A stretch of 64,000 bases of DNA from Chrysoperla carnea (Eukaryota; Arthropoda; Insecta; Neuroptera; Chrysopidae). Made by a program: the position numbers and the translations under genes. Shown here piece after piece: positions 2,073 through 59,689 of the stretch. The stretch covers positions 91,072,368-91,136,367 of the forward strand of contig NC_058337.1 of the NCBI RefSeq assembly GCF_905475395.1, written 5' to 3'. The notes beneath the pieces were generated by a model that saw nothing but the letters and a program-made list of their open reading frames with translations, was not told the DNA's origin and searched no databases. Positions within the stretch are counted from its first letter, which is position 1, and each line of letters opens with the position of its first letter.

Positions 2073-2844
2073 TATATTACAATTTTTTTAAGGGGTACCT
2101 CTTTGAAAAAAATCGAGAAAAAATTTTGGTTACGAATATTTTCTTACGAACACTGGCGGTAGTTTATTAAGCAAAGCGACCATCCGTTAATTTTCTACAA
2201 AAATATGTATGGCTCATTTTATGACATTTATTAATTAACAAATTATAAAATAATGCAAAAAAAAAATGTTCCTCGCTTTTTCAAATTCAAGCATTCAATT
2301 TCCTACAAAAATATGTATTAAGATTGCTGTACGTTCAATTAATGACAAGACACGAATTTGTTTATATGAAATAAAAATGGAAAACTTTGATAAGGAAGAC
2401 CTTCCTATTAACATTAAGAGCTCATATTTGGAGATAGTTTTCTAGAGTTGCACTCAGAAACCAATTTTTCGACATCGGAACAAAAAAAAAGTAGATATTT
2501 CGACCCACCCTAGTGTAGATGCACGTACCTGAATGTAATACTAGCGGCGCTAGGATTACAACTTATTACAGCATATTAAATAGCTTAGCATTCAGGTATT
2601 TTAATGCCCAGATACAAATCTGAAAGTTATGGACTTAACAAACATATTTTTGTTGTTCGAATAACAGAATTACATAAGTCATTAAATAATATTTAACAAA
2701 AGTTTTTGTTAAACATTATTTTTCAGTCACTTGCAAAAAGGAGTACTTATCTCGATTCTATGTGTTAATTAATTACTCGTGGAATATTGTTTAGAAATTA
2801 AATTTAATCACCACCAGTGCAATATTTAAAAATAATTTACAAAA

Positions 2845-5800: not shown

Positions 5801-6485
5801 AATACATCCCAGAGTTGTAATAACAGCAGCACATTGTGTAAGCGACAAAAAGAAACAGAAATCGTTAAAAATACGAGCTGGGGAATGGGATACACAGACC
5901 AAAAGTGAACAGTATCCACATCAAGACCGTGACGTTGAAAAAGTAATCATTCACGAGTTATACTATGATCGGGCACTTTTTAACGACATCGCTCTGTTAA
6001 TCTTAAAATCACCAGTTAATATAGCAGAAAATGTAGACGTAGCATGTTTACCAGAACAGGCAATGATTACACCAGAAGGTACTCGATGTATTGCAAGTGG
6101 TTGGGGTAAAAATGTGTTCGGTCAAAAGGGACAGTACCAAGTGATATTGAAAAAAATTGAGTTACCGATTGTAGGGGATTTAGCTTGTACACAATCGTTG
6201 CAGAAAACGAGATTAGGTAATCGTTTTCAATTGCATCCAAGTTTTATTTGCGCTGGTGGTGAAGCAGGACGAGATACGTGTAAAGGTGATGGAGGTAGTC
6301 CCTTAGTTTGCCCCATAAGTGGTATACCCAATCGGTATTATCAAGCTGGAATTGTTGCATGGGGTATTGGATGCGGAGAACAACAAACTCCTGGTGTGTA
6401 TGTTAATGTTGCCTTATTTCGTGATTGGATTGATTTACAATTAAAAAATAATAAAATCAACACTGACACATATAGTTTTAGTTGA
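2845..6485 (+). CDS. clip-domain serine protease homolog, catalytically dead (copy 1)
   Basis: Two exons, 2845-3149 and 5510-6485, joined through an Arg codon split CG|G (donor GTAAGT at 3150, acceptor TTTTCAG ending 5509), give 426 aa. Residues 1 to about 24 are a hydrophobic signal peptide, so the protein is probably secreted into haemolymph. A clip domain has its six cysteines at 78, 80, 86, 108, 115 and 116, with the hallmark VPYYLC and DGEGLIDIR segments; the exon junction lies inside it. The chymotrypsin-fold domain follows: TAAHC with His210, NDIALL with Asp261, and GDGGSPLVC where the catalytic Ser is Gly363. Loss of that serine makes it a non-catalytic homolog of the CLIPA/PPAF-II/masquerade-like group, which in other insects acts as a cofactor for prophenoloxidase activation. 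That role is inferred from family membership. The start is the only ATG that provides a signal peptide, in context ACAAAAATG. Confidence 0.94.
3455..4031. repeat. foldback element in SPH intron (copy 1)
   Basis: Two imperfect inverted arms of about 160-175 bp, 3455-3627 and 3871-4031, face each other across about 240 bp. Matching landmarks are AGACCTCG with CGAGGTCT at the outer ends, GTCATGAAAATGACAGG with its complement, and AAAGTTGGAAAATGTACTCA with its complement at the inner ends. There is no coding capacity. It looks like a MITE or foldback element inserted in intron 1; the duplicate copy is at 9774-10350. Confidence 0.7.
4739..5281 (+). repeat. family R repeat in SPH intron (copy 1)
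   Basis: Near full-length family R copy running from GAAAAGAAACAATTGACTG to TGCATGGTATAAAA, with the palindrome GGGTCCTACGGACCC and a conserved mini-frame starting at 5172 that encodes FLSVTNLGLNLIYYVYFIYAW. The preceding 4350-4450 carries part of the same sequence in inverted orientation (CTTGTTAACCGTTAGAGATAG), so the intron holds two opposed partial copies. The duplicate is at 11058-11600. Confidence 0.75.
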
Positions 6486-6539
6486 AAATTGTTTTAAATT
6501 AATTGACAAGTTTTAGTAAATGTTATGTTTTCTATTTTA

Positions 6540-6545
6540 AATAAA
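6540..6545 (+). terminator. poly(A) signal of SPH copy 1
   Basis: AATAAA lies 55 bases after the TGA stop of the serine protease homolog, in an AT-rich 3' UTR. Equivalent to 12859-12864 in the second unit. Confidence 0.6.
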
Positions 6546-7827
6546 TATATAATGTTGATTTGATATTTTGTCTTATTATTCTTTTTAAATAACTCCCGAT
6601 CAAGTACATTTGACTTATTTTGATTCAATCTAGCAGGTGTGTATAGACTGTCAATGGAAGCAAAATAATACACTTTTTAATTTCTGAAAAAGTTCAATGA
6701 AAGCTCCATTGAAATTCAAAAAGGAAATTAATAAACATATCTATAAATCCTGTTTTGCTTAACTTTTCTTTTTCTTACAAAAGTTTTGCATAATTTATAA
6801 GATGATCATTGTAAAAGCATGATAATTTTAAATCATTTCAAACCATAGTGAACACTTTTTTGAACAAATTTTGATACAAGATGGCTTATTGGCGATTTTT
6901 GTTGTAGCAATTACACCAAACACGATGGTGGTATTGAAAACCTTGTAAACCACCGACTTTTTTGTTTAAAAAAACGTGTTTTTTTTCTGTGTTTAACCAA
7001 TTTTATATCGTTGGCCAAAACATTGAATTTTGTTCAAAGAATTGACAATTTTAATTGAGCTTACTTGTTTATTAAAGATTTGCAGCTTTTAATTTAAGTT
7101 TTTCTATTTCATACTCCCAAAATATGTTGCTTCAAGTTTTATAAAACATTACTTTCTTTACAAAAAAATAACTCAAAGACTGTATCGAAATACATGCAAC
7201 TACCGGTATATACCAGAAAAGTGAAACTTGTTGGTCCCAAATAGACCTTTATAGGTCTATTGATTATTCGAGATCATTTTGCGTTTGGGTCTGCTAATTA
7301 TTATTGAACTAATTTTTCGAATAATCCTTCTTTTACAAACATAAAGTTGATATGATTATATTAACTCGTAAATTTTCCAATAAAACCATTATTTTTTAAT
7401 ACATTTTTTCCGACATAAGTTTTTATTTTCTGAACCCACAATACACTTTTTTGTCGGTTTCATAGTCAATGGATTTGTTTGAAAATTTACCCTTTAACAA
7501 ATTAAATTGTTACATTGCCTAAAAAAGCCGATAAGAAGACGTTAATTCAGGCTTACATTCTTCACGACGTCCAAGTTATTCATCATATTCCGCTGGATTT
7601 GATCCACTTATATAGTCAATTTAGTACTTCAACTATTTGTGATCGATTATATTCTGATACAGTTTCTCTTTCTCCTGAAACCACACTTTCCTGGTAAACT
7701 TACAAAAACTTTCTCAAATGCTTTTTATGTATTTCAAGATGGTAAAAAAATAATTCGGAAAAATTGATGGATTCAAAAGGTAAGCGATCAATAACAAAGT
7801 TTATTATTTGGTATCTCGAGAAATAGT
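6546..7827. other. intergenic within unit 1, no gene seen
   Basis: AT-rich DNA after the SPH poly(A) signal. A 60-codon open frame at 7515-7697 begins with TTG, has no ATG and resembles no family, so I do not call it a gene. The same stretch recurs at 12865-14146. Confidence 0.55.
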
Positions 7828-8070
7828 GCAACCTACCCAGTTACAATCCCTTTTCAAATTTGTACTGTTAGTAGGATTACTAAGCGTAAATTTGATTAGG
7901 ATTCTAAGGCATTAACTTCGAAAACGGAAATGTTTAATGTATACAAAATTTTTGCTAATATTACCTAAGCCGTTTTCGAGATCTCATACCTTAAAACTTT
8001 AATCGACTTTACGCTTAGTAATCGTACTTACAGTACAAACTTTGAAATGAATTGAAACTTGGCAGGTTGC
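7828..8070. repeat. 243-bp foldback/MITE-like palindrome (copy 1)
   Basis: An imperfect palindrome that folds over its whole length. The outer ends are GCAACCT at 7828 and AGGTTGC ending at 8070; inside, TTGTACTGTTAGTAGGATTA and ACTAAGCGTAAA pair with their complements near 8012-8041, closing at CGAAAACGG / CCGTTTTCG. No coding capacity. Duplicate copy at 14147-14389. Confidence 0.7.
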
Positions 8071-8379
8071 TTAAAAAACAAGTTACTTAAAAAGCTCGTG
8101 ACATCACGTTTCAAAATTTGTAATGTCCAAGCGCGAAAGCATAATTTAGTGTCTATTATTTCTTAACTAGCCATTCGTTGTCTCTATACTTTGAATATTT
8201 AGCTAAAAGTTGATTTTATTAAAGATTATTCAATAAATATAAGAATAAATGGAAATAACTGTTTTTTTATATTATTTTTCCATAAAATTGGAAAATGTGT
8301 GACGTCACGTCAGGGGGGGGTTCAAAATGTGACAACTTGTGACAAGGGCGGAGAGGGGGGTTAAAAAGTCCTGAAAATT

Positions 8380-8391: not shown

Positions 8392-9163
8392 TATATTACA
8401 ATTTTTTTAAGGGGTACCTCTTTGAAAAAAATCGAGAAAAAATTTTGGTTACGAATATTTTCTTACGAACACTGGCGGTAGTTTATTAAGCAAAGCGACC
8501 ATCCGTTAATTTTCTACAAAAATATGTATGGCTCATTTTATGACATTTATTAATTAACAAATTATAAAATAATGCAAAAAAAAAATGTTCCTCGCTTTTT
8601 CAAATTCAAGCATTCAATTTCCTACAAAAATATGTATTAAGATTGCTGTACGTTCAATTAATGACAAGACACGAATTTGTTTATATGAAATAAAAATGGA
8701 AAACTTTGATAAGGAAGACCTTCCTATTAACATTAAGAGCTCATATTTGGAGATAGTTTTCTAGAGTTGCACTCAGAAACCAATTTTTCGACATCGGAAC
8801 AAAAAAAAAGTAGATATTTCGACCCACCCTAGTGTAGATGCACGTACCTGAATGTAATACTAGCGGCGCTAGGATTACAACTTATTACAGCATATTAAAT
8901 AGCTTAGCATTCAGGTATTTTAATGCCCAGATACAAATCTGAAAGTTATGGACTTAACAAACATATTTTTGTTGTTCGAATAACAGAATTACATAAGTCA
9001 TTAAATAATATTTAACAAAAGTTTTTGTTAAACATTATTTTTCAGTCACTTGCAAAAAGGAGTACTTATCTCGATTCTATGTGTTAATTAATTACTCGTG
9101 GAATATTGTTTAGAAATTAAATTTAATCACCACCAGTGCAATATTTAAAAATAATTTACAAAA

Positions 9164-12100
9164 ATGAAATTATCAAGATTTTTATCACTAATAATACTAT
9201 GCAATAATTTATTTAAATTTGTAATAAATAAGGGTATTTTTAAGGAGGATGATCACCTTGAAGATGATAATGGCGACAATAATCAATTAATGCATAGTAG
9301 TCAACGATTTTTAAATGGGAATTTAATTAATGATCGTAATTTAATATTAAGTATACGAAAACCAACAAAAAATGATGACCCATCACAAAAGAATTGTGAT
9401 TGTGTGCCATATTATTTATGTTTAAATAATTCAATTATAACAGATGGGGAAGGATTAATTGATATTCGGTAAGTTAACCTTATATATTAATCGTTGAATG
9501 TTAACATTTTTCAGCAAGGTTGATAAGAACGGGTAACGCAAATTACTTGATATACTTAAAATAGCCTTATGAAATTCTTATGTTTTCTTATTAGCCATAA
9601 TAGAGGGAGACTTTATCAGAAAAAATGGAATGACAAAATAAGTCCACCCTTTTGGCCACTGAAAATAGAGATAATTCTTAATGAACAATGAGAAGTTTTA
9701 TCAGGTCGTAGGTGTTGCATTTTCGCAAGGGCATACGATTTCATGTTCATAATTGTTAAGATTGATTCAGTCAAGACCTCGAACAAATTAGATGTAATTT
9801 GCATTTCGGTCAAACTTTTTCGGTCAAATTATGGGAAATGATAGTTGAAGTCATTCTACAGAAGAGTTCTCGTAGTCACAAGTCATGAAAATGACAGGAT
9901 TTCATGTTATAGCTAAATTAAAGTTGGAAAATGTACTCATTTGTATAACATATGCCTATGTGTGTATAGGCAAATACGTATACAGATATGTATAACTATA
10001 TGCATATGTATGTTTTTTAATGTAAGAGTGCTGTTTTTTTATTCTTGTTTTTTTGAAGAATATGATACGAAATTCAAAGAAGAAGCAGTGTTAAATGTTC
10101 AGTGAATCAATAATATGAAGTGTTAGGATCAATATTTTCAGCTACATATCGTATACGATTTTTTACAATTAAATTACAATAATTTTTTTATACAAATGAG
10201 TACATTTTCCAACTTTAATTTAGCGATATCTTGAAATCCTGTCATTTTCATGACTTAAGACCAAGTGAATTTTTATTCAGAATGACTAAAACTATCTAAT
10301 TTGTAAAATTTTTACCGAAATGCAGATTACATCTAATTTGTGCGAGGTCTAATCATACATAAAAAAGAGTGAACCTTGCATCAAATCAGGTATTTTTGTT
10401 TTTTGATATATTGTTTGCAATGCAGAGGCAATAGTTAAACCCAAGATTTCTACCTCGTCAAACTACCGAATCATGCCAAAAAATAAGAAAAACCTCGAAA
10501 ATTTTTATCTTATTTCAGTTTTTGCCGATTTTGACCCGGAAAACCTAGTTTTTATTGTGGTATTCATTTTTAAAGCAGGGTAAATTTGTAACAATTTGAG
10601 ATAAGACCGGCTTTTATGGGACCGATAGTTTCGGAGATACAACTTTTCAACGATCTTACGCAAATTTTCATCTTGTTAACCGTTAGAGATAGAACAAAAG
10701 TTTAAATTTAAAAAATGTTTCTTATATACAAAATTAAAAACTTTGGTTTGGAACATATTTCATAAACATCACTAGTTTTCGAAAAATTATTTTCCAGAAT
10801 GTTTCACTAGACCACTAGTTGGAGCTACCTGCAAACTTTCAACTTTCTATCTTTTATAGTGTTGGAGAAAATGGACACCAAAATTTTGTCCTAATTTGTG
10901 CCTTCACGAGTAAACAGTGATGTTTATGAAATAATGTTTCAAACAATAGTTGTTTATTTTTTTAAAAGGAACATTTTTTATATTTGAACTGTTGCTCTAT
11001 CTCTAACGGTATACAAGATGAAATTTTGCAAAAATCGTAAACCTAACTTGAAAAAAAGTGAAAAGAAACAATTGACTGAGTTAATTGTTGAAATACCATG
11101 CATAGTCACTGTTGATTTCTTTATCACATAACACATACAAAAATGTATAGACAGTGTTGATGCGCAATCGTTTGTTTTTTTGACGTCACATAAATAACCC
11201 TCGTGGGTAAAAAGTGATGTTTACAAAAAAATGTTTCAAACAAAAGTTTTTTATTTTTTTTATAAGGAACATTTTTTACACTTAAACTTTTGTTCTATCT
11301 CTAACGGTTTACAAGATGGGTCCTACGGACCCAAGACCCAATTGACCTATGATGCTCATTTACGAACTTGACCTCACTTTTTACGACTTGAGTACGCTGT
11401 AAAAATTTCAGCTCGATATCTTTTTTCGTTTTTGAGTTATCGTGTCCACAGACGGACGGACAACCGGAAATGGACTAATTAGGTGATTTTATGAACAGCT
11501 ATGACAAAATTTTTTTCCTAGCATCATTATTTTTAAGCGTTACAAACTTGGGACTAAACTTAATATACTATGTATATTTCATATATGCATGGTATAAAAA
11601 GACAAATGTTGGAAAGCTGAATATCTAAAATATTCAAGTAATTCGCCATGTTGTTATATATTTCGCCTTTTTTGATATTTATCTGATTCTCAAATGTACT
11701 ATATTTTCAATAAAAATTGTAAATTTTTATTACATATTCTTTCAGTTTCAGAAAATAAATTTTTGCTAATATATAGCTTGGCTTTACTTTTTCACAACAA
11801 ATGAATAAAATTAATTTTTAATTTTCAGGATGCAAGATGGACCATGCACAAGTTACTTAGACTTTTGCTGTAAAACAGAAAATAAAATTCCAATTCAAAC
11901 AAATAAAATCGATTTTCCATTGAAAAAATCGGTAGGATGTGGAATTCGCAACCCAGAAGGTGTTGGATTTCGAATTACTGGCGATAAAAACAATGAATCA
12001 CAGTATGGTGAATTTCCATGGATGGTAGCAATTTTATACGAAGAACCTTATGAAAACAATGACAATAATGATGTAATTCCACAATCCAGAATAAATATTT

Positions 12101-12804
12101 ATCAATGCGGTGGTTCGCTAATACATCCCAGAGTTGTAATAACAGCAGCACATTGTGTAAGCGACAAAAAGAAACAGAAATCGTTAAAAATACGAGCTGG
12201 GGAATGGGATACACAGACCAAAAGTGAACAGTATCCACATCAAGACCGTGACGTTGAAAAAGTAATCATTCACGAGTTATACTATGATCGGGCACTTTTT
12301 AACGACATCGCTCTGTTAATCTTAAAATCACCAGTTAATATAGCAGAAAATGTAGACGTAGCATGTTTACCAGAACAGGCAATGATTACACCAGAAGGTA
12401 CTCGATGTATTGCAAGTGGTTGGGGTAAAAATGTGTTCGGTCAAAAGGGACAGTACCAAGTGATATTGAAAAAAATTGAGTTACCGATTGTAGGGGATTT
12501 AGCTTGTACACAATCGTTGCAGAAAACGAGATTAGGTAATCGTTTTCAATTGCATCCAAGTTTTATTTGCGCTGGTGGTGAAGCAGGACGAGATACGTGT
12601 AAAGGTGATGGAGGTAGTCCCTTAGTTTGCCCCATAAGTGGTATACCCAATCGGTATTATCAAGCTGGAATTGTTGCATGGGGTATTGGATGCGGAGAAC
12701 AACAAACTCCTGGTGTGTATGTTAATGTTGCCTTATTTCGTGATTGGATTGATTTACAATTAAAAAATAATAAAATCAACACTGACACATATAGTTTTAG
12801 TTGA
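9164..12804 (+). CDS. clip-domain serine protease homolog, catalytically dead (copy 2)
   Basis: Exons 9164-9468 and 11829-12804 encode the same 426-aa secreted protein as the gene at 2845-6485: signal peptide, six-cysteine clip domain (cysteines 78 to 116), and a trypsin-like domain with His210 and Asp261 kept and the catalytic Ser changed to Gly363 in GDGGSPLVC. The split Arg codon, donor GTAAGT and acceptor TTTTCAG are the same. Because the 5' flank inside the unit begins about 770 bases before the ATG, both copies would carry the same proximal promoter and should be co-expressed if both are real. Confidence 0.93.
9774..10350. repeat. foldback element in SPH intron (copy 2)
   Basis: Duplicate of the inverted-arm element at 3455-4031, at the same place in intron 1 of the second gene. 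The element was therefore already in the intron before the block was duplicated. Confidence 0.7.
11058..11600 (+). repeat. family R repeat in SPH intron (copy 2)
   Basis: Duplicate of 4739-5281, with the same mini-frame starting at 11491. Confidence 0.75.
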
Positions 12805-12858
12805 AAATTGTTTTAAATTAATTGACAAGTTTTAGTAAATGTTATGTTTTCTATTTTA

Positions 12859-12864
12859 AATAAA
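12859..12864 (+). terminator. poly(A) signal of SPH copy 2
   Basis: AATAAA 55 bases after the TGA of the second serine protease homolog; same context as 6540-6545. Confidence 0.6.
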
Positions 12865-14146
12865 TATATAATGTTGATTTGATATTTTGTCTTATTATTC
12901 TTTTTAAATAACTCCCGATCAAGTACATTTGACTTATTTTGATTCAATCTAGCAGGTGTGTATAGACTGTCAATGGAAGCAAAATAATACACTTTTTAAT
13001 TTCTGAAAAAGTTCAATGAAAGCTCCATTGAAATTCAAAAAGGAAATTAATAAACATATCTATAAATCCTGTTTTGCTTAACTTTTCTTTTTCTTACAAA
13101 AGTTTTGCATAATTTATAAGATGATCATTGTAAAAGCATGATAATTTTAAATCATTTCAAACCATAGTGAACACTTTTTTGAACAAATTTTGATACAAGA
13201 TGGCTTATTGGCGATTTTTGTTGTAGCAATTACACCAAACACGATGGTGGTATTGAAAACCTTGTAAACCACCGACTTTTTTGTTTAAAAAAACGTGTTT
13301 TTTTTCTGTGTTTAACCAATTTTATATCGTTGGCCAAAACATTGAATTTTGTTCAAAGAATTGACAATTTTAATTGAGCTTACTTGTTTATTAAAGATTT
13401 GCAGCTTTTAATTTAAGTTTTTCTATTTCATACTCCCAAAATATGTTGCTTCAAGTTTTATAAAACATTACTTTCTTTACAAAAAAATAACTCAAAGACT
13501 GTATCGAAATACATGCAACTACCGGTATATACCAGAAAAGTGAAACTTGTTGGTCCCAAATAGACCTTTATAGGTCTATTGATTATTCGAGATCATTTTG
13601 CGTTTGGGTCTGCTAATTATTATTGAACTAATTTTTCGAATAATCCTTCTTTTACAAACATAAAGTTGATATGATTATATTAACTCGTAAATTTTCCAAT
13701 AAAACCATTATTTTTTAATACATTTTTTCCGACATAAGTTTTTATTTTCTGAACCCACAATACACTTTTTTGTCGGTTTCATAGTCAATGGATTTGTTTG
13801 AAAATTTACCCTTTAACAAATTAAATTGTTACATTGCCTAAAAAAGCCGATAAGAAGACGTTAATTCAGGCTTACATTCTTCACGACGTCCAAGTTATTC
13901 ATCATATTCCGCTGGATTTGATCCACTTATATAGTCAATTTAGTACTTCAACTATTTGTGATCGATTATATTCTGATACAGTTTCTCTTTCTCCTGAAAC
14001 CACACTTTCCTGGTAAACTTACAAAAACTTTCTCAAATGCTTTTTATGTATTTCAAGATGGTAAAAAAATAATTCGGAAAAATTGATGGATTCAAAAGGT
14101 AAGCGATCAATAACAAAGTTTATTATTTGGTATCTCGAGAAATAGT
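12865..14146. other. intergenic within unit 2, no gene seen
   Basis: Duplicate of the gene-free DNA at 6546-7827. Confidence 0.55.
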
Positions 14147-14389
14147 GCAACCTACCCAGTTACAATCCCTTTTCAAATTTGTACTGTTAGTAGGATTACT
14201 AAGCGTAAATTTGATTAGGATTCTAAGGCATTAACTTCGAAAACGGAAATGTTTAATGTATACAAAATTTTTGCTAATATTACCTAAGCCGTTTTCGAGA
14301 TCTCATACCTTAAAACTTTAATCGACTTTACGCTTAGTAATCGTACTTACAGTACAAACTTTGAAATGAATTGAAACTTGGCAGGTTGC
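14147..14389. repeat. 243-bp foldback/MITE-like palindrome (copy 2)
   Basis: Duplicate of the palindrome at 7828-8070; it lies about 310 bases before the right duplication boundary. Confidence 0.7.
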
Positions 14390-14930
14390 TTAAAAAACAA
14401 GTTACTTAAAAAGCTCGTGACATCACGTTTCAAAATTTGTAATGTCCAAGCGCGAAAGCATAATTTAGTGTCTATTATTTCTTAACTAGCCATTCGTTGT
14501 CTCTATACTTTGAATATTTAGCTAAAAGTTGATTTTATTAAAGATTATTCAATAAATATAAGAATAAATGGAAATAACTGTTTTTTTATATTATTTTTCC
14601 ATAAAATTGGAAAATGTGTGACGTCACGTCAGGGGGGGGTTCAAAATGTGACAACTTGTGACAAGGGCGGAGAGGGGGGTTAAAAAGTCCTGAAAATTGT
14701 GTGACGTAATTTATGGATGGCCTCTAATGGAATCAAGTGAGACGTATGCAACTAAATATTGTAAATGAATTTCTCCGTTATTCAAAAATGAAGTATGTAT
14801 TTAAAAACATTAAAAAGTAGAAATTATAAATTAACATTATTCTTAAAAATGTACAAAAAACGGTGAGAATCATTAAACAGAATATACTTTAAAAAACAAT
14901 TAGGTTTAAAAATAATTACAAAAAAAATCA

Positions 14931-45002: not shown

Positions 45003-46046
45003 CAGTGGCGTAGCGTGCCTTGTCGGGGCCCCGTATAAAAATTTTTTTGGAGGCCCTTATATGGAGGTAAAGATTTTTCACAAAAGAAAAAAAATATTGT
45101 GAGAAGTAATATTTATTTATCACATAATTTACCCATTTTACAAATAAAAATCGAATTTTAAATATTCACTCTCCTTGCCTTTTTATCGGCAAACTGATTT
45201 ATTAAATCATTTATGGCTGATGATGATTTTAGTTTTTCTAAAGTTTCTGCCTCTATGGACAATAGTGAGATGTCTGACAGCCGTTCTTGTCCCATCGAAG
45301 TTCTTAAGTAATTTTTTATTAGTTTTAATTTTGAAAAACTTCTTTCTGCCGTTGCGGTTGTAACTGGAAGGGTCAAGAATAAAAAGCATGCTGTGATTAC
45401 CTCGGGAAAACTGGATGCAAGACTATTGAATTTTACTAGCAATAATTCAATGAGTTCTTTAATGGAATAAATTTTTTTAATTTCAGAATTTAAGCATGTT
45501 TTTAGAGCCTTTAATTGGTCACAAAGATTAAGTGAGATGTCTTTACTGTATTTAGCAGACAGTTTTCCGGAAGCGTTTAATATCTCTTCGCTTGAAGAAG
45601 ATAGGAGTTTCTCCGGTTGTAATATTTCGAATATACTACTCAGGTTGCAAAGGCTCTGAAATCTTTCTTTAGTTTGAGAAATTAATATATCTAAACAGCA
45701 ATAGTATACATTGACTTTGAAATAGGATTCCGGGTCGGAAATTCTCTCATCTTGTGATAACTCATCAAAAAAACGCTTCGTTATCTTTCGCCTACTGTTT
45801 TTAAAAACAGTTGTTACCCCCCACTTTTTTGCTAAATCTTTGGATTCATTTAGCAAACTATTAAATATTAGATTATTAAATTATTATAATTAAATTAGAT
45901 TATTAAATTATTATAGAATTTTGTCATTTGTAAAATAAAATAAATTAGAAAGTTTTTATTCTTTTTCCTTTCACACTTTGGGGGCCCCCGTGGCCCGGGG
46001 GCCCCGTATAATTGATACGGCAAATACGGCGGTAGCTACGCCCCTG
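45003..46046 (-). mobile_element. 1044-bp hAT deletion derivative
   Basis: Terminal inverted repeats CAGTGGCGTAGC (45003) and GCTACGCCCCTG (ending 46046) match at 11 of 12 positions. Flanking 8-mers ACGGACGC and ACGGACGG fit the 8-bp hAT target duplication with one difference. The interior keeps only the 3' part of the transposase gene, plus a GC-rich GGGGGCCCC block near 45981-46009. It is inserted in a family R repeat. The element cannot mobilise itself but has recognisable ends. Confidence 0.88.
45158..45856 (-). pseudogene. hAT transposase C-terminal fragment
   Basis: An open frame of 232 aa without the BED zinc finger or N-terminal catalytic region. Its C-terminal third has the hAT dimerisation signature FLTLPVTTATAERSFSKLKL followed by IKNYLRTSMGQERLSDISLL, as in ZMYM1-like/hAT transposases. 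Upstream residues such as LSQDERISDPESYFKVNVYY and CCLDILISQTKERFQ belong to the helical part of the same family. Full transposases are about 600-700 aa, so over half is missing, consistent with an internally deleted element. The frame is open throughout, so the insertion is not old. Confidence 0.85.
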
Positions 46047-48220: not shown

Positions 48221-49970
48221 ATTTTTCCGTAAATATCTTGTTCTACAGGGTCCAAATAAGGGTAAAATTTAAGTTTTCATTTCCTAAAAAACTAGGATCT
48301 GGATCTGGATCTCATATATTTTGGATCTGGAAATAGAACAGAAAATTGACCATCTACTGACAAAATGCATAGATACACATATGCTCATGTTTTACTTCAT
48401 TGTATTTTTTCTAGGAATTTGTGTCCCCCTCCCCACTTCTTGAGAAAAACATCATTTTCTTAGTATATAAAAATTTTCTTTGTGATGAAATTTCCAAAGT
48501 TTATGTAAGAATAAGCAATTCAACACTGACCATTGTGTTTTAAACATGAGTTTACTGTTTATGGTGATTACAATGATTAAATAACAAGCTATGAACAAAT
48601 TATTAATCTTTGCTGGTGAGAAAATAGTTTAATGTCCTTAAAAGACAAAACACAATGTTGATTTGTAAAAAAAATTTATAAACAATAATATTAGTTATTA
48701 AACAATAATTGCACTATAAAAATTGACCTTATCCAAGCAACAAGAAAGTAGGCCACGGATTTCTTAATGAAAAAATTCTTTAAAATCCATAATAGGCTTT
48801 CGTCCTAAATTTGAAAAATTGGTTTATACGTTACACTAGTAACTGATTTACACCAAAAAAGTATTATTTAAAAAAAAAAGACAGTATTTGCATTATATAT
48901 TTTGCATTTTCAAAAATCAATTCAAATTTACTTCGAAATCCGTGTAATCAAGTGTCATGGCGTCTTAAATGACATTACGGCGTGTTAAATGTTAGTTCTA
49001 GTTAGTTAGAAAAAAGTAATGTTGTTTAAATTGGGTGCGTTTGGCAGAAAAAAGCGCTTGAGAGCGCTTACTAGCTCTGAAAAGCGAGTGATGAAGTCAT
49101 TGCCGTTTGAGTTTATAGTTTAAACCATTTTCAATCGTAAAATTACATAAAATATCAATTAAAAAAAATTTTTAACTTTTCTAGTAATTTTTATTAATCA
49201 TTCGAAAAAAAACATATAAATATAAAAATAAAAAAACATGCAACTTTTCTGTTATAATAAATACCTGAAAATAATTCAAACGTGATAAATGAATAATATT
49301 AAATTGTCATACATAACACACACAACATGCTCCTAAAAATTCTTTATGAACATATTTGTGTGGGCATATCTTAAGAATAATTGGCGATAAATATGTGTGA
49401 CGATTAGTTGATTAATAGAAGATTAAAATCAATAATACTATTAGATTAGTATAAAAAACTGTATGAGTTGATTATTGTCTATCATTTAAACGCAGCATTA
49501 TAACATCGCATCGGTGTGTGTTGGCTTGATTTCACTAGTAGAACAGGCGGAAAAACGCTAAAATGATAGAAATAATGTACCACTGATAATAGAAGTGTGT
49601 TTACAAAATTCAAAATTATTAAGAATGTGCGAGCGCCAGGGTAATTTTGGATAAAAGGTTTGATTTTTTTTTATATGAAATTTAATCAACTAAGTCTAAA
49701 TCAATTCTGAAAGTTTTAGGGGGTTTCCCGATTATTTAAATATGCCTACTTCAAAAGTAGGCAAAAGTAAGCAGGTATTTTCAATTTTGATTTCGATATT
49801 TTGAAAACCAAGGCCGATATCATGCATTTGTGACAAAATTCACCATCAAGCTATATTCACCAGCTATAAAATTAATTAGAATCAAACAAGTATTTGACAA
49901 AAATTTTCAGAAAAATATCGTGTAAATAAAAAAAGTAAGCGCTACATTTATGTACCAAGATACATAAATG
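48221..49970. other. intergenic, nothing recognised
   Basis: No gene supported. The segment 49880-49970 (CAAACAAGTATTTGAC, AAGTAAGCGCTACATTTATG) is related to 59725-59815 and probably belongs to the same repeat as the adjacent hairpin. Confidence 0.45.
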
Positions 49971-50550
49971 TATAATAATAATTTAGTAAGAATCAGCAGT
50001 CACCATGCGTAGGCTAGCCGAAGAGGGTGCAGTACTTTTCAAAATAATTTTCATTTTTGATTCGATACGGAGTTTAATATCATCGTGTGACGTGATTTTA
50101 AACTTTACATTTATCAGGTACGTAAAATACAAAAAACAAATTTGGGGGGATATCTGGCAGATGTAAAGCATCGACTACTATCATTTCTATAAAAAAAAAT
50201 CAAGAGATGTCGCGGGACACCCAGTAGGAATTATATTCCTTGCCATGGAATTATATTCCATGGTACCAAAATACCATGCAAGGAATATAATTCCTACTGG
50301 GTGTCCCGCGACATCTCTTGATTTTTTTTTATAGAAATAATAGTAGTCGATGCTTTACATCTGCCAGATATCCCCCCAAATTTGTTTTTTGTATTTTACG
50401 TACCTGATAAATGTAAAGTTTAAAATCACGTCACACGATGATATTAAACTCCGTATCGAATCAAAAATGAAAATTATTTTGAAAAGTACTGCACCCTCTT
50501 CGGCTAGCCTACGCATGGTGACTGCTGATTCTTACTAAATTATTATTATA
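49971..50550. repeat. long near-perfect inverted repeat (273-bp arms, 34-nt loop)
   Basis: Position n pairs with 100521 minus n from 49971/50550 inward to 50243/50278. I found one mismatch in the arms (50182 C opposite 50339 A). The unpaired centre, 50244-50277, contains its own CCATGG/CCATGG mini-palindrome. Both arms carry the same 62-codon open frame (49983-50171 minus, 50350-50538 plus) simply because they are inverted copies; it has no known relatives. Transcription through it would give a long double-stranded RNA hairpin. A foldback element or an hpRNA/endo-siRNA source are both possible, as is a sequencing chimera. Confidence 0.93.
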
Positions 50551-51089
50551 TATACTGTTTATTATTGAGTTAAAGTTATAATTATAGTAACTCATGACTA
50601 TGACTATGACTATAAGTTATTATTAAATTATTGTTAGTTAATTTCATTTAAAACTATTATTATTACGTTTATTTAATATTAATCAACTTTAATGCGTGTA
50701 TGATCTATAAAGATTATATGGTAGTAACCGTTACCCACCCGCCTCGCAGAGCATATGTTCAGAGAGATTAGATTATGTTATTAATTTATATTTATATATT
50801 ATTATAAAAATTATTACCAAAAAACCAATCAAAAAATGGTAAACTATACTTTATTAATGTAACTAATTGCTGGCATAGCGAATTTAGTTATTCATAATTA
50901 AGTGTATGTAACGTTATCTTTGAATAAAAAACAAAATCATACTCTTATTTGTTTATGTAACTACATCTACAAATTCCAAAAGAAACTATCATTTACTTTG
51001 GTACATGTGTGATTAAAAAACAAAAACTTTTAAAGGGATTATTACAGAGTTCTCCATACAAAACTTTATTTCCTATTTTACCACCTTCT

Positions 51090-53269: not shown

Positions 53270-54055
53270 AAAACCAAAAAAACTGCAACGGACATCAAAA
53301 ATCGACACCTAGGTTACCTAGGAAATTAAAACTTTTTAATCGATTCAGGTTGCCATGAATTTTGAGAAAATGCAAAAATCTCACTATAACTATCAATTTG
53401 TATTTTTTGTCAAAATTGTATGTATGGTGTGATTTTATGTGAAAAAAAATTTGGAAAACGGTTGACCCTGCAGGTCATCCCTGTAACTTCCCGGTAAGTA
53501 TTGACTTAGAACGTGTAAAAAATTTTATCTATTCTGATGTTATATCCACTCGCATTTTATTGTAATTAGATGTGATCTTAGTGTTTGATAAAACACTATT
53601 TTTTAAATTTTCAAATCGCGATAACTTTAGAATGAATAAACCGATTTTCACGCGGTTGGTGACTTTCGACGCAATTTTTGAAGCTTCATGAAGAATCTTT
53701 AAGTTTCAATTGATAGAACAAAAAATTTTGAGGTTATTCCGAAAAAACGCTTTTTTGGGTTTTCTTTCGTCAACGATAACTCACGAACGAATCAACCGAT
53801 TTTGACCGGACTGGCGGTGATCGACGTGGTTTTTTGATGTTGAGAGCTGATTAGTTTTTGGAATTGATCGATATAGCCGTTTAAAAGTTATTTAAAAAAA
53901 ACCACTTAAAAAAAATTTTTTTTTGAAGTTTTTTTGAGATTTTTTGAAATCTATCGAATCGGTCCAAATAGGCATCAAAATCTAAGTTTGGTGAAGCCCT
54001 TTCGAATGGCACCAACCGCGATCAAATCGGAAAAGCCGTTTAGGTTTACATACAT

Positions 54056-54056
<1 letters not shown>
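53270..54056 (+). repeat. unclassified interspersed repeat, left part
   Basis: Landmarks are CAACGGACATCAAAAATCGA, CACCTAGGTTACCTAGG, GACCCTGCAGGTCATCCCTG and TAACTTCCCGG, then TCGCGATAACTTTAGAATGA and CGATAACTCACGAACGAATC. It ends in ACATACATCC and the (AC)n tract. Its continuation after the R1 insertion is 59406-59530. No coding capacity. Confidence 0.55.

Positions 54057-54141
<85 letters not shown>
54057..54141. repeat. (AC)n microsatellite, left of the R1 insertion
   Basis: About 85 bases of CA dinucleotides with one TA interruption near 54090. It directly abuts the 5' end of the retrotransposon (CTGCGGCAGAGG). The same dinucleotide resumes after the element's poly-A at 59389. Confidence 0.95.
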
Positions 54142-54143
<2 letters not shown>

Positions 54144-54643
54144 GCGGCAGAGGAGAAACTGCTACCAGGCGCGTCTCCACGTGAGGATTGGAGAAGCTCT
54201 CATGCTCTTTTAAGGGCATAGGGTAGGAGTCAAATAAAATAGCTCCCGTGTACAAAACTCCCCAACAATGGGTTGGTCATAACATCTGACCTGCCAAGAA
54301 GATTGTTCGCTGTTATAACCCACTGGGAGTGTTCGTGACTGAGTCGATGTCTGTGGTCGATGCAAGTTTCCGACTGATGTGAGCTTGCTCTGCCGAGGTG
54401 TAAGTTATAGCAGTAGATCTGGAGCCAGCCACTTCGGGCCTTGATCAGGAAGTACGCAGTGAGTGTTAGAGATCGGAATCTTCACCGCACCGAGTGAGTC
54501 CAGTCCGTCCGTGAATTCCGGGACTGGCTAAGTGTCGACTGGGCCTCAGGGAACTGGGGTAGGAGTATTATCTCCGAGGGTACACCCGTTCCTAGTTATG
54601 ACAACCCACTCCTCTCCGTACGATGCGCTGGTAAAACTAAAGT

Positions 54644-56146
54644 ATGAAGAAATTTTTAAGAAACACAAAAGAAGAAGACAGAAGTGGAGAAAGTGGGCAA
54701 GTTGCCCAGCAAACACCGCGCAAACGAAGCGCAGAGACGGAGAAACTGATGAGAGTCTTGTCAGTTTCAACCGAAGAACGAATTTCGGGCAAAGGACGGA
54801 ACGCCTTGAAGGCAGCACTGGAATCCGGCCTGGAATTTACAAAGGAGCAAGCTTTGGACATCTTGGGGAAGCTTATCAAAGATCTACGCGGCTTCGTTGA
54901 CCCGAAAGTGAACGTCCATAAGCCGATCAAGAATCAGCTGATGAGCATCGAAGGTGTCTTCGAAGAGCTTCAGAAGCTGGAAGCTCAGGAGCAAGGTGAA
55001 CGACAGAAGACCTCCCAGAGGTCTCCAGCAAAGAGAACACCACCTCCTCGGACGGAAGATCTGACTAATACTGACACCAACACTGAGATGGAGACTGAGA
55101 CAGATGCAGATGCTGAGTCTATGACGCAAGACAACCGAGATCTGAGGAAGGCGAAAAGAAAAATTCGCTCTCCGGAGGATGGAACATTGCGCACTACTAA
55201 GAAGCTAAGAGACTCGGGACCTAGTCTCCCAAGCAAGAAGGAAGAAATGACTGAACAGTCGCAGAACTCTGAAAAGCAGGCCCAGGAGCACGGCTGGGAG
55301 ACAGTGCAGTCGAAGAAAAACAAGAGAAAAGAGCGCAAGACGAAGCCTTCAGAAAAACCTCCAGTGCTTAAACCGAAGCCGAACCGGAAGAAGCCTAGAA
55401 GAGCAGCAATGAGACCGGAAGCACTGATCATCCGACCAACAGACAAAAGTAAGTATTCCGACATACTGAAACAGATCAAAATGTCAGTACCCGCTGACCA
55501 GGTCTGTAACACAGTCGACAAAATACGGAAGACAGCAGCAGGCGATATGCTCATTACACTGTCAAAAGGCAGTTGTGATAGAGGCAAAGTCCTCCAGACG
55601 ACTCTCTCGGGAATACTTCAAGATGACGCTAAAGTCATCGCCACAGGTCCTGAAGAAGATCTAGAGATACGGGACATTGATGATACAACCACAACAGGAG
55701 ACATCCTTGCAGCCTTACAAATGGTAGCCGGGAACGACTGTGGAATAACCGCAGAAGCAATCAAATTTCGTAAAGCCTTCAGAGGCACACAGACTGCGAC
55801 GGTCACGCTGGCAGCAGCAACAGCGCAGAAAGTGGTAGGAGAACACGGCAAGATAAGAATCGGCTGGGTAAACTGTCGTATTAGAACAGTGCTAAAGCCA
55901 GTCCGATGCTTCAAATGCTGGCACTTTGGACACCGTGCGGTCCAGTGTAAAAGTGAGAAAGACCGATCCAAACTGTGCATTAAGTGTGGAGAAGAGGGTC
56001 ACAAACTGACCGAGTGCAATAAGCCTGCCAGATGTTCACTGTGTGCTGATCATCCCGGTACAGAGAATGTCGCTCATTATGCCGGCTCAAATAGATGTCC
56101 CGTATACCAGGAGGCACTCAAGAAGATAACGAACAGTCGAAAATGA
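54644..56146 (+). CDS. R1-clade retrotransposon ORF1 (Gag-like RNA-binding protein)
   Basis: 500 aa. The N-terminal half is highly charged, Lys/Glu/Arg-rich and low complexity, with an acidic stretch (TDADAES) near residue 160 and basic runs around residues 235-255. A conserved globular region around residues 260-410 (ALIIRPTDKSKYSDILKQI) precedes the zinc knuckles: CFKCWHFGHRAVQC near 422, CIKCGEEGHKLTEC near 446, and a looser third knuckle starting CSLCADHPGTENVAHY near 464. This is the standard R1/TRAS ORF1 plan; the protein binds element RNA to form ribonucleoprotein particles. A stop codon (TAA) directly precedes the ATG region, so 54644 is the first in-frame start. A separate 122-codon frame at 54532-54900 overlaps its start and is probably incidental. 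Confidence 0.9.
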   Translation: MKKFLRNTKEEDRSGESGQVAQQTPRKRSAETEKLMRVLSVSTEERISGKGRNALKAALESGLEFTKEQALDILGKLIKDLRGFVDPKVNVHKPIKNQLMSIEGVFEELQKLEAQEQGERQKTSQRSPAKRTPPPRTEDLTNTDTNTEMETETDADAESMTQDNRDLRKAKRKIRSPEDGTLRTTKKLRDSGPSLPSKKEEMTEQSQNSEKQAQEHGWETVQSKKNKRKERKTKPSEKPPVLKPKPNRKKPRRAAMRPEALIIRPTDKSKYSDILKQIKMSVPADQVCNTVDKIRKTAAGDMLITLSKGSCDRGKVLQTTLSGILQDDAKVIATGPEEDLEIRDIDDTTTTGDILAALQMVAGNDCGITAEAIKFRKAFRGTQTATVTLAAATAQKVVGEHGKIRIGWVNCRIRTVLKPVRCFKCWHFGHRAVQCKSEKDRSKLCIKCGEEGHKLTECNKPARCSLCADHPGTENVAHYAGSNRCPVYQEALKKITNSRK

Positions 56147-59121
56147 GAATATTGCAGCTAAACATCAACCATTGCGAGGCTGCACATGACTTGCTTATGC
56201 AGACAGTACGTGAACAGAAGATCGACCTTGTGCTTATATCAGAGCCGTATAAACACCTCATCGGTCAGCAATGGGAATCTGACAGTAACACAAAAGCTGT
56301 CGTATGGTCCTGTGGCAAGCTCCCCTTCCAGAGAGCAGTTGACAATAACAATGCCGGCTTTGTAGCAGCATCAGTAAGTGGCACCCGCTTCTACAGTTGC
56401 TACGCACCACCTAGCCTCTCAATTGTCGAATTTACTGACTTCCTGGATCGACTGACTGAGGACGCCAAGCAGCATCATCCAGTAGCGATAGCAGGAGACT
56501 TCAACTCTTGGGCAGTAGATTGGGGCAGCAAGCATACCAACGCACGAGGGAAAGCGCTACTGGAAGCTTTTGCTACACTGGATGTAGTTTTGCTGAACAG
56601 TGGTGACACACCGACCTATACCAAAGGTGACGCAAGCTCGATTGTAGACCTCACTTTTGTCAGTAATAGCCTCGCTAGAAGCGTTAACAACTGGAAGGTG
56701 TTGGATACCTACACTGCCAGCGACCATCATGCGATATGCTGGGAAATATCAAATGATCAGAGCCCCGAGAGACCTATTTTGCAATCTAACACCGTTGGGT
56801 GGAAAGTAAAATCATTTGATCCAGAAGCACTACTTATAGCTCTCAATAGTGATCCAATCAATCCTGGACGTGCGGAAGAACAATCAAAAGACCTGATGTC
56901 GAGAGTCACGGAAGCCTGTGACGCCAGTATGCCCCGTAAACGCGTCATGACACCTAGACCAGCGGTACACTGGTGGAACGAACACATCAGCAATCTCCGT
57001 AAGGAGTGTCATCGGAAGAGAAGAATATCTCAGCGTGGCTATCGACGATCTGACTCTACAGTTCTGATTGCAGAGTATAAAACAGCTCGCCGTGAACTCA
57101 ATAAGGCCATAAAAGAGAGCAAAGGAAGATGCTGGAAAGAGCTGATATACGAGGTGGACAAAGACGTGTGGGGTCGGCCTTACAAAGTGGTCATGAACCA
57201 CCTGAAGAAACAACAAATGCCGTCACCTACGTGTCCTCAACTCCTTCAGAAAATCGTCACTGTGCTGTTTCCACAGCAACACAGTCTCGAGTATCAGATA
57301 ATGCCAGGCGAACTGGAAGACATTCCACCGGTCACTGAAGAAGAATTGCTGGAGGCCTGTAATCGTGTAGGAAATAATAAAGCTCCGGGATTGGACGGAA
57401 TCCCTAATATAGCCTTGAAGACCATCATAAAGGCAGCACCAACATTATTTCTAGACGCTTACAACGCATGCCTCAAGGAGGGGACTTTTCCTCGTAAGTG
57501 GAAACAGCAACGATTGGTACTGCTACCTAAAGGGAAAAAACCGCCAGAAGAACCGTCATCTTACCGACCACTCTGCATGCTAGATACAGCGGGTAAGATA
57601 TTCGAGCGCATAATCCATCAACGAATAGATACAGTGGTCGATCCACTCCTGGCAGACAACCAGTATGGATTCCGGAAAGGACGATCAACTCTTGACGCGA
57701 TCAATCTGGTTGTTAATACGGCCAAGGAAGCAATCGCAGGAACTAGATGGAAGGGTGGAACGAAGAAGTACTGCCTGGTGGCCGCCTTGGACATCAAAAA
57801 TGCTTTTAATTCCGCTAACTGGGACTGCATCATGCAAGCCCTTGAAGAAAAAAACGTGCCAGCATATCTGCGCAGACTAGTGATTAGTTATTTCACAGAT
57901 AGAGTGCTGAAATACGACACGAAGAATGGGCCAAGAGCATATGATGTAACCGGTGGAGTTCCACAGGGCTCTGTTCTTGGTCCACTCCTGTGGAATATCA
58001 TGTACGATGGCCTTCTGAGATTGAATCTTCCAAGATGTGTCAAACTGGTAGCATATGCCGATGATGTTGCTGCAGTGATCGTCGCCAAACACCTTGACGA
58101 GATACAACACCTGTTTGACATCACTTTTGAGAAGATCAACCAGTGGATGGACACAGTGAATCTACAACTGGCAAAGCAGAAGACCGAAGCAGTGCTTATT
58201 ACCAGCCGTAAAGAAGTTGAAACAATTAAGCTGAAAGTCGGAGACCAAGAAATCACATCACAACCTCATATACGGTATCTGGGAGTGATGCTTGATGCCC
58301 GACTCAACTTTAAGCAGCAAGTCGAACACGTCTGCACGAAAGCGTCAGTAGTGAGAGCTAGTCTCGCACGATTGATGCCGAACGTCGGAGGCCCAAAGCA
58401 GAGCAGTAGGCTACTATTGTCATCAGTAGTCACATCGGTACTCACTTACGGAATATCCATTTGGGCTGACGCACTAAAGACGCAAGATTCCTGGAGAAAG
58501 GCTGGACCAATATATCGGATGAGCGCACTACGAGTCGCAAGCGCTTTTCGCACAATATCGGAGGAAGCGGTGTGTGTCATTTCCGGAACTCTACCTCTTA
58601 GAGTTCTAGCTGAGGAAAGACAGAACCTTTATCAACGAAAGGCGTCAACCACACTGAGTGATGAAGAACTCAAGGCAGAAGAACGACAGAAGAGCATCGC
58701 ACGTTGGCAGCGTCAATGGAATGCTGCAGAGAAAGGCAGGTGGACTCACCACCTCATACCACGAATTGATGTTTGGCTGAATCGTAATCACGGTGAGGTC
58801 AACTACTATCTAACACAGATGCTATCAGGGCATGGCTGCTTTCGAGAGTATTTACACCGCTTCAAGCACGATAATTCTCCGGAGTGCCCGTCCTGCCCAG
58901 GAGTACTTGAAAATGCGAAGCATGTTTTCTTCGAGTGTCCGCGATTTTCTACACTGCGTGATCAACTCGAAAGTATCTTACACCAGAGTATTCAACCAGA
59001 GACACTAGTAGAAGCAATGTTGTCATCGAGAGCCTCTTGGAACGCCATCAGCACATTTGCTACAGAAGTCCTCATAGGCTTGCGTTCCATCGAAAGAAGA
59101 AGGGCACAGGACAACAGCTAG
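56143..59121 (+). CDS. R1-clade retrotransposon ORF2 (endonuclease + reverse transcriptase)
   Basis: 992 aa from the ATG that overlaps the ORF1 stop as ATGA, implying stop-restart translation; the frame is open for 16 more codons upstream, inside ORF1. An apurinic-type endonuclease comes first: LQLNINHCEAA at 4-14, ISEPY near 37, AGDFNSW near 115, VDLTFVS near 170 and SDHHAI near 193. The reverse transcriptase follows: NKAPGLDGIP near 413, KGKKPPEEPSSYRPL near 465, LDIKNAFN near 550, GGVPQGSVLGP near 604 and the catalytic YADD near 638. A C-terminal C-x2-C-x8-H-x4-C finger (CPSC..H..C) starts near 914. All catalytic motifs are intact, with no stop or frameshift. The protein nicks the target and primes cDNA synthesis there. 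Confidence 0.95.
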   Translation: MRILQLNINHCEAAHDLLMQTVREQKIDLVLISEPYKHLIGQQWESDSNTKAVVWSCGKLPFQRAVDNNNAGFVAASVSGTRFYSCYAPPSLSIVEFTDFLDRLTEDAKQHHPVAIAGDFNSWAVDWGSKHTNARGKALLEAFATLDVVLLNSGDTPTYTKGDASSIVDLTFVSNSLARSVNNWKVLDTYTASDHHAICWEISNDQSPERPILQSNTVGWKVKSFDPEALLIALNSDPINPGRAEEQSKDLMSRVTEACDASMPRKRVMTPRPAVHWWNEHISNLRKECHRKRRISQRGYRRSDSTVLIAEYKTARRELNKAIKESKGRCWKELIYEVDKDVWGRPYKVVMNHLKKQQMPSPTCPQLLQKIVTVLFPQQHSLEYQIMPGELEDIPPVTEEELLEACNRVGNNKAPGLDGIPNIALKTIIKAAPTLFLDAYNACLKEGTFPRKWKQQRLVLLPKGKKPPEEPSSYRPLCMLDTAGKIFERIIHQRIDTVVDPLLADNQYGFRKGRSTLDAINLVVNTAKEAIAGTRWKGGTKKYCLVAALDIKNAFNSANWDCIMQALEEKNVPAYLRRLVISYFTDRVLKYDTKNGPRAYDVTGGVPQGSVLGPLLWNIMYDGLLRLNLPRCVKLVAYADDVAAVIVAKHLDEIQHLFDITFEKINQWMDTVNLQLAKQKTEAVLITSRKEVETIKLKVGDQEITSQPHIRYLGVMLDARLNFKQQVEHVCTKASVVRASLARLMPNVGGPKQSSRLLLSSVVTSVLTYGISIWADALKTQDSWRKAGPIYRMSALRVASAFRTISEEAVCVISGTLPLRVLAEERQNLYQRKASTTLSDEELKAEERQKSIARWQRQWNAAEKGRWTHHLIPRIDVWLNRNHGEVNYYLTQMLSGHGCFREYLHRFKHDNSPECPSCPGVLENAKHVFFECPRFSTLRDQLESILHQSIQPETLVEAMLSSRASWNAISTFATEVLIGLRSIERRRAQDNS

Positions 59122-59347
59122 AAGAAAGAAGGAATAACATCTTAGCTAGCAGAAGAAAAAGCAGTAGCTAAATTCTCCCCCCACGAAGTAATGCCTAACG
59201 GCGGATACCGTGGAGGACCAGAGTTCAGAGGATAGCGGAGGTTTTAGTCGGTATTAGCATTAACACGTCATCTTAAGTTAATGTCCGAGTCCGACATACC
59301 AGGCAAAACATCTAAGCCAGAGATTCATAAATGAATTTCCTTCGCTA

Positions 59348-59388
<41 letters not shown>
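59122..59388 (+). other. R1-element 3' UTR and poly-A tail
   Basis: 229 bases including GGTTTTAGTCGGTATTAGC, then 38 consecutive A residues at 59351-59388. A long poly-A next to resumed CA repeats marks the 3' integration junction. Confidence 0.85.
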
Positions 59389-59402
<14 letters not shown>

Positions 59403-59405
59403 CAC
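59389..59405. repeat. (AC)n microsatellite, right of the R1 insertion
   Basis: Seventeen bases of CA dinucleotide directly after the poly-A, then TCATACATACAGCC. It is the remainder of the tract at 54057-54141. Confidence 0.93.
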
Positions 59406-59530
59406 TCATACATACAGCCATACAGACACCTTCGCGAAAGTAGTCAGGGAAGCTTCCTGACACCTTAAAACGTCGAGATCTGATGAAAACTCGATTTTGG
59501 CAAAACGGGGTGAAAACAATAACTTCCCTA
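59406..59530 (+). repeat. unclassified interspersed repeat, right part
   Basis: TACAGACACCTTCGCGAAAG, AAAACGTCGAGATCTGATGA, AACTCGATTTTGGCAAAACG and GGGTGAAAACAATAACTTCC follow a layout common to insect repeats with an internal CA/CATA tract. Together with 53270-54056 it is the pre-insertion target repeat. Confidence 0.55.
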
Positions 59531-59689
59531 TTTTCAAATATTTTATGCTATGTTATAATAAATATTCTAATGAAACCAAACGTAATGTACTCATATATTG
59601 GGTTGACTACTAAATCAGAAGTATGTCTTTTTTAAACTAATGCTACAATTATTAGTATTTCATGTAATTATTTCATACAGTAACAGCTA

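Follow-up and report, generated by a model that had tools for sequence, protein, structure and literature searches.

A two-ORF non-LTR retrotransposon in the 64-kb stretch of DNA analysed here (G000:C1:91072368-91136367 of a 559-Mb host assembly, hereafter the window) is very probably a young, apparently complete LINE of the R1 clade that inserts selectively into CA-type microsatellites, by a nick in the GT strand and target-primed reverse transcription. All 19 close copies examined across the assembly join their poly(A) directly to a CACA-type repeat, always in the same orientation, and nearly all tailed copies of a sister family lie instead in (TA)n.

The window copy appears to be a complete element (Table 1), with the boundaries, flanking CA repeats, two uninterrupted ORFs and 38-nt poly(A) tail described in the initial annotation. 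The ORF1 stop and the ORF2 start overlap as ATGA; ORF2 measures 992 aa from the ATG at 56143, or 1008 aa if started at 56095. The divergent base composition noted at the outset is also borne out, with a GC content of 47.7% in the element versus 29.0% in the remaining window. Among the motifs first listed, the endonuclease and reverse transcriptase (RT) stand far above the Pfam cut-offs (Exo_endo_phos_2, 1.4e-23; RVT_1, 1.1e-34), but the zinc knuckles of ORF1 are a reading by eye of three C..C..H..C-like motifs, for which the Pfam zf-CCHC match is sub-threshold (17.3 versus a cut-off of 20.8 bits). The zf-RVT match at the C terminus of ORF2 is likewise sub-threshold; by eye, the motif there is similar to those in families B, C and D and in the 28S-type R1 of the same genome. 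We considered and rejected an upstream ATG in a different frame as the start of ORF1: copy L022 shows no indel between the two, so no frameshift is claimed. The only Rfam match, to a miRNA on the minus strand, is below threshold and taken as chance, and an endonuclease structure predicted without an alignment was too poor for use (mean pLDDT 38.8).

Table 1 Features of the element and of its insertion site, in window coordinates
Feature	Position	Strand	Remarks
Dispersed host repeat (landing pad), left part	53470..54056	+	Alignment to other pads; left limit provisional
(AC)n microsatellite, 5' side of insertion	54057..54141	+	One T interruption
Whole element	54142-59388	+	Two-ORF non-LTR retrotransposon, poly(A) end
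5' UTR	54142..54643	+	
ORF1	54644..56146	+	500 aa; presumably binds nucleic acid
Three CCHC-like zinc-knuckle motifs of ORF1	55907..56098	+	By-eye reading; Pfam zf-CCHC under cut-off
ORF2	56143..59121	+	992 aa, with endonuclease and reverse transcriptase domains and a C-terminal zinc motif
AP-like endonuclease domain in ORF2	56152..56736	+	PF03372 / PF14529
Reverse transcriptase domain in ORF2	57538..58290	+	PF00078
YADD motif of reverse transcriptase	58054-58065	+	By-eye reading
C-terminal CCHC-type motif of ORF2	58885..58938	+	zf-RVT-like, under Pfam cut-off
3' UTR	59122..59350	+	
Poly(A) tail	59351..59388	+	38 A
(CA)n microsatellite, 3' side of insertion	59389..59405	+	
Right part of same dispersed host repeat	59406..59535	+	

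Elsewhere, the window holds an exact 6,307-nt direct duplication (2073-8379 and 8392-14698, period 6,319), a very recent event unless it is an assembly artefact, each unit of which carries a single-exon trypsin-like ORF of 329 aa (5496-6485 and 11815-12804). It also contains an inverted repeat with 276-nt arms, 99% complementary and 34 nt apart (49968-50243 and 50278-50553), and a minus-strand ORF with a hAT dimerisation domain (45158-45880), probably the remnant of a DNA transposon.

The proposed R1-clade membership is supported by the predicted endonuclease and the architecture of the element. In a PDB sequence search with the endonuclease, all five rows at E 0.1 or better were TRAS1 and R1Bm-type proteins (TRAS1 1wdu, E 2.3e-11). 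Support from the RT is weak: ORF2 of the window is 27% identical to that of the 28S-type R1 (L049) and 26% to that of L050, which we call Jockey-like on a reading of its sequence, and an in-genome RT tree of eight rows supports only the grouping of A with B (97/100), the B pair (99/99) and L049 with L051 (100/100), leaving the split between R1 and Jockey-like elements unsupported. Since these identities are too low and the tree leaves the split open, the placement rests on endonuclease, architecture and target behaviour. The viral and bacterial collections offered no usable R1-clade reference RT; among plasmids, all hits were distant RTs (where annotated, mainly from group II introns), and phages yielded a single distant RT record. 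An origin in a neighbouring clade (Jockey- or I-like), with microsatellite targeting acquired by convergence, would fit the nearly equal ORF2 identities and the unsupported split in the tree, but we regard it as improbable given that the PDB matches are confined to TRAS1 and R1Bm-type endonucleases, that a GHG...CCHC C-terminal region is common by eye to families A-D and L049 and was not seen in L050, and that the element has two ORFs with three zinc-knuckle-like motifs. The 38-A tail is a further feature of the R1 clade found here; as most non-LTR elements, R1-clade ones included, end in poly(A) according to PMC7265360, the tail is not specific to R1.

Other R1-like elements occur in the same genome. 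Judged by its 3' flank, L049 (G000:C6:363200-366085) is apparently a 28S-type R1: the flank begins with TGTCCCTATCTACT, presumably the R1 target duplication in 28S rDNA, and continues with 20 nt unlike recognisable 28S; many R1-like RT matches (31-34% identity) cluster on contig C6. The R1-like family D (L047, L057-L062), 41% identical to the window element over the RT, is found on many contigs, and several of its members have an open ORF2 of 984 codons.

Genome searches with the window element (59 matches from 40 scored of 83 candidates, and 40 scored of 56 in a second search) defined family A as 19 copies at 94-100% identity, namely the window copy and L009-L026. In every one of these 19 the poly(A) passes directly into a CACA-type repeat, being (AC)n in 17, (ACAT)n in L011 and (CACCCA)n in L023; the last of these indicates a target that is CA-rich rather than strictly AC. 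The sense strand carries AC in all 19 copies and the GT orientation in none (binomial p 3.8e-6). Target-site duplications are unreadable within a repeat. In 16/19 copies, an AC tract is present no more than 150 nt from the 5' junction; of the remainder, L018 has an imperfect AC repeat, L023 has CACCCA again and L011 abuts another element piece. A few non-AC bases separate repeat and element at the 5' junctions of L014, L019, L020, L022, L025 and L026.

Background DNA looks different. No AC/GT tract of at least 12 nt occurs in 94,651 nt of control DNA, made up of 18 evenly spaced 2-kb stretches (36,000 nt) and the remaining 58,651 nt of the window, and the two tracts flanking the insertion are the only ones of that length in the 64 kb. 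None of the 19 family A copies is inserted in telomeric (TTAGG)n or at the 28S R1 site; L023 adjoins CCCAA/CCTAA-like arrays but sits in (CACCCA)n. At seven 3' ends of family D (L047, L057-L062) no AC or TA microsatellite was found, so the family A result is no artefact of how 3' ends were read. The suggestion of a sequence-directed insertion is thus upheld, with 19/19 close copies in CACA-type repeats and none in unrelated sequence.

The immediate target in the window is an (AC)n tract inside a dispersed host repeat. A search with the right flank gave 343 first-look candidates, of which 40 were scored; 39 of these are other loci, matching at 98-99% over about 130 nt. This pad repeat holds seven of the 19 family A copies (window, L009, L012, L014, L015, L017 and L021) and the relative L028, and a second recurrent host repeat is common to L016, L026 and the relative L037; the pad had no match in any of the 18 control stretches. 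In L012, a continuous (AC)n of more than 400 nt precedes the pad. These associations would suit a preference for the host repeat or its chromatin rather than for CA sequence. We consider such a preference unlikely, as 12/19 copies show no match to the first pad, a CA-type repeat is the sole flank in common (L016 and L026 aside), and the junctions fall within the microsatellite itself in a fixed orientation.

Empty pads show the target as it stands without the element. Four of six fetched pads (L063, L064, L066 and L068) contain an element-free (AC)n of 27-96 nt, with one T interruption in L063; L067 carries a short related 3'-end insert within its (AC)n, and L065 lacks much of its left side. 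Among 40 scored right-flank matches (2,978 candidates) no empty allele of the window site itself was seen, the whole flank being covered by the window alone. That the element landed in ordinary DNA and made the CA repeat itself, within its tail or through later slippage, has a precedent in RTE elements, a proposed source of microsatellite families in moths and butterflies (PMC2887409), but is very unlikely and largely refuted by the element-free (AC)n in these pads, together with the AC tract on both sides in 16/19 copies and the matching repeat type across the element in L030, L031 and L036 (ACAT) and in L023 (CACCCA).

More distant relatives, at about 77-81% DNA identity, share the target preference. 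Of 15 with an aligned 3' end, 14 lie in AC or ACAT repeats, 12 scored by script and two by eye (L041, where the script misplaced the tail, and L034, to which it gave 0 owing to imperfections in the ACAT repeat); the other, L045, has ACAT on its 5' side and no microsatellite on its 3' side, and L029, which has no 3' end, was left unscored. Twelve further ends read by eye (L038, L040, L042, L043 in two pieces, L044 and L090-L095) all adjoin AC-, ACAT- or ACAG-type repeats: the repeats are short in L042, L091 and L092, L090 has (ACAG)n, in the pieces of L043 a proper tail is absent or the 3' end is lost, and a few extra bases are present at the ends of L040, L044 and L095. In L033, an inverted CGTATGTATG comes first and the ACAT array follows. 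The ACAT relatives L030, L031 and L036 show the same type of repeat on either side of the element, and at G000:C3:274143-284285, less than 300 kb from one end of contig C3, copies of families A and B are adjacent in ACAT arrays.

The ACAT arrays additionally fix the phase of insertion. At nine junctions hand-picked as clean (L011, L011b, L030, L031, L034, L036, L038, L041 and L046), the join reads A|CATA in 9/9 and A|TACA in 0/9 (p 0.004), a phase that fits a nick of the complementary strand after TGT or TG and priming on poly(A). We envisage that the ORF2 endonuclease, as the likely setter of specificity, would nick the strand rich in GT, on the 3' side of a TGT (or TG) step, that the 3'-OH so freed would prime reverse transcription of the element RNA at its poly(A) tail, and that joining of the second strand would leave the remaining microsatellite on the other side, in a course of target-primed reverse transcription.

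The insertion is most likely recent as well as sequence-directed, in agreement with the initial annotation. In a comparison of copies over the final 1,097 nt, no substitution is private to the window copy, whose sequence there equals that of L011; the median distance to other copies over this stretch is 0.5-1.2% in 14 copies and 2.0-3.3% in five (L010, L016, L023, L024 and L025). A complete 5' end was found in the window only: a 5' UTR search (4/4 candidates scored) gave five matches, of which the window alone covers positions 1-519, the other four being two fragments of L022 (the rearranged C6 copy) and, at 73%, two matches that lie upstream of family C sequences. Of the 18 other family A copies, 17 start at element position 920 or beyond and L022 is rearranged, as expected for LINE copies. 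ORF2 has been under purifying selection, with dN 0.110 against dS 1.095 (NG86) between the window and the family B copy L011b.

Several known elements share this behaviour in part. Mino is a two-ORF AP-endonuclease LINE, the layout seen here, and Waldo, also of the R1 clade, targets (ACAY)n. Both AC and ACAT belong to the ACAY type, and the pooled target of families A and B therefore fits Waldo well. Within family A, 18/19 copies occupy a Mino- or Waldo-type target, (AC)n or (ACAT)n, and 1/19 (CACCCA)n. Insertion of the R1-clade element Mino into AC repeats, as the initial annotation had noted, is stated in PMC3124438; families A and B share this target with Mino but differ in also using ACAT and once CACCCA. 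TRAS1 and SART1 resemble the window element in endonuclease (1wdu), in a simple-repeat target and in the poly(A) tail (PMC7265360), but are directed to telomeric (TTAGG)n rather than a CA repeat. The 28S-specific R1 (L049) has a similar ORF2 layout and, by eye, a C-terminal zinc motif, but differs in its ORF2 sequence and its 3' flank. Togen, described in PMC4640811 as NeSL-related and (TG)n-specific, has the same CA/TG microsatellite specificity but belongs to the restriction-like-endonuclease group, which makes the targeting convergent. PMC4640811 also lists three main target-specific groups, R1 being one, and includes microsatellites among the targets. AC-targeting R1-clade elements such as Mino are thus already published, and since microsatellite targeting by R1-clade elements is already known, the window element is a well-documented addition to them.

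Of greatest interest is the difference in target between sister families. A genome-wide RT search (110 of 1,830 candidates scored) revealed family C, about 55-58% identical to the window element over the RT and about 48% over ORF2. From a search with its 3' UTR (34/34 candidates scored, 35 matches) we examined 30 ends, comprising L048, L053, L055, L056 and 26 more (L096-L121); L113 took the place of L054, whose sequence missed the 3' end. Locus L052 contains a masked stretch and was set aside. Two of the 30 (L120 and L121) are tail-less and stand outside the 28 poly(A)-tailed copies, of which 27 lie in (TA)n and none in AC. The exception is L118; L119 has a short CAAAA ahead of TA, and L117-L119 are just 80-83% identical to the family C query. 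A TA target is thus used by 27/28 copies of family C versus 0/19 of family A (Fisher p 3e-12), against a background of no TA tract of at least 12 nt in 36 kb of controls and four such tracts (186 nt) across 58.7 kb of window sequence.

The endonucleases of the two families are similar enough for residue-by-residue alignment, the 5' UTR of family C is 73% similar over 262 nt, and a core of the 3' UTR (59185-59254, GAAGTAATGC...GGTTTTAG) is conserved in families A-D. Because RNAalifold gave a covariation term of 0 for the 3' UTR, with two-sided change in 5/20 pairs, we claim conservation of sequence only and no structure. On the simplest reading, the endonuclease would have switched target while RNA recognition stayed. 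To our knowledge, (TA)n specificity has not been described for the R1 clade; a search of the open-licence literature turned up no R1-clade element specific for (TA)n, which given that scope is weak evidence of novelty.

We see about an even chance that related R1-clade LINEs split the microsatellites of one genome, with families A and B in CA-type repeats and family C in (TA)n, the endonuclease alone being retargeted between AC and TA, and the AC lineage profiting from a dispersed host repeat that spreads landing pads. The pad itself is an example of one repeat family supplying safe sites to another. The A/C pair is a natural experiment on landing-site choice by such elements and deserves follow-up: with AC/ACAT and TA sister families whose endonucleases align, what part of an AP-like endonuclease reads the target is directly testable by domain swaps.
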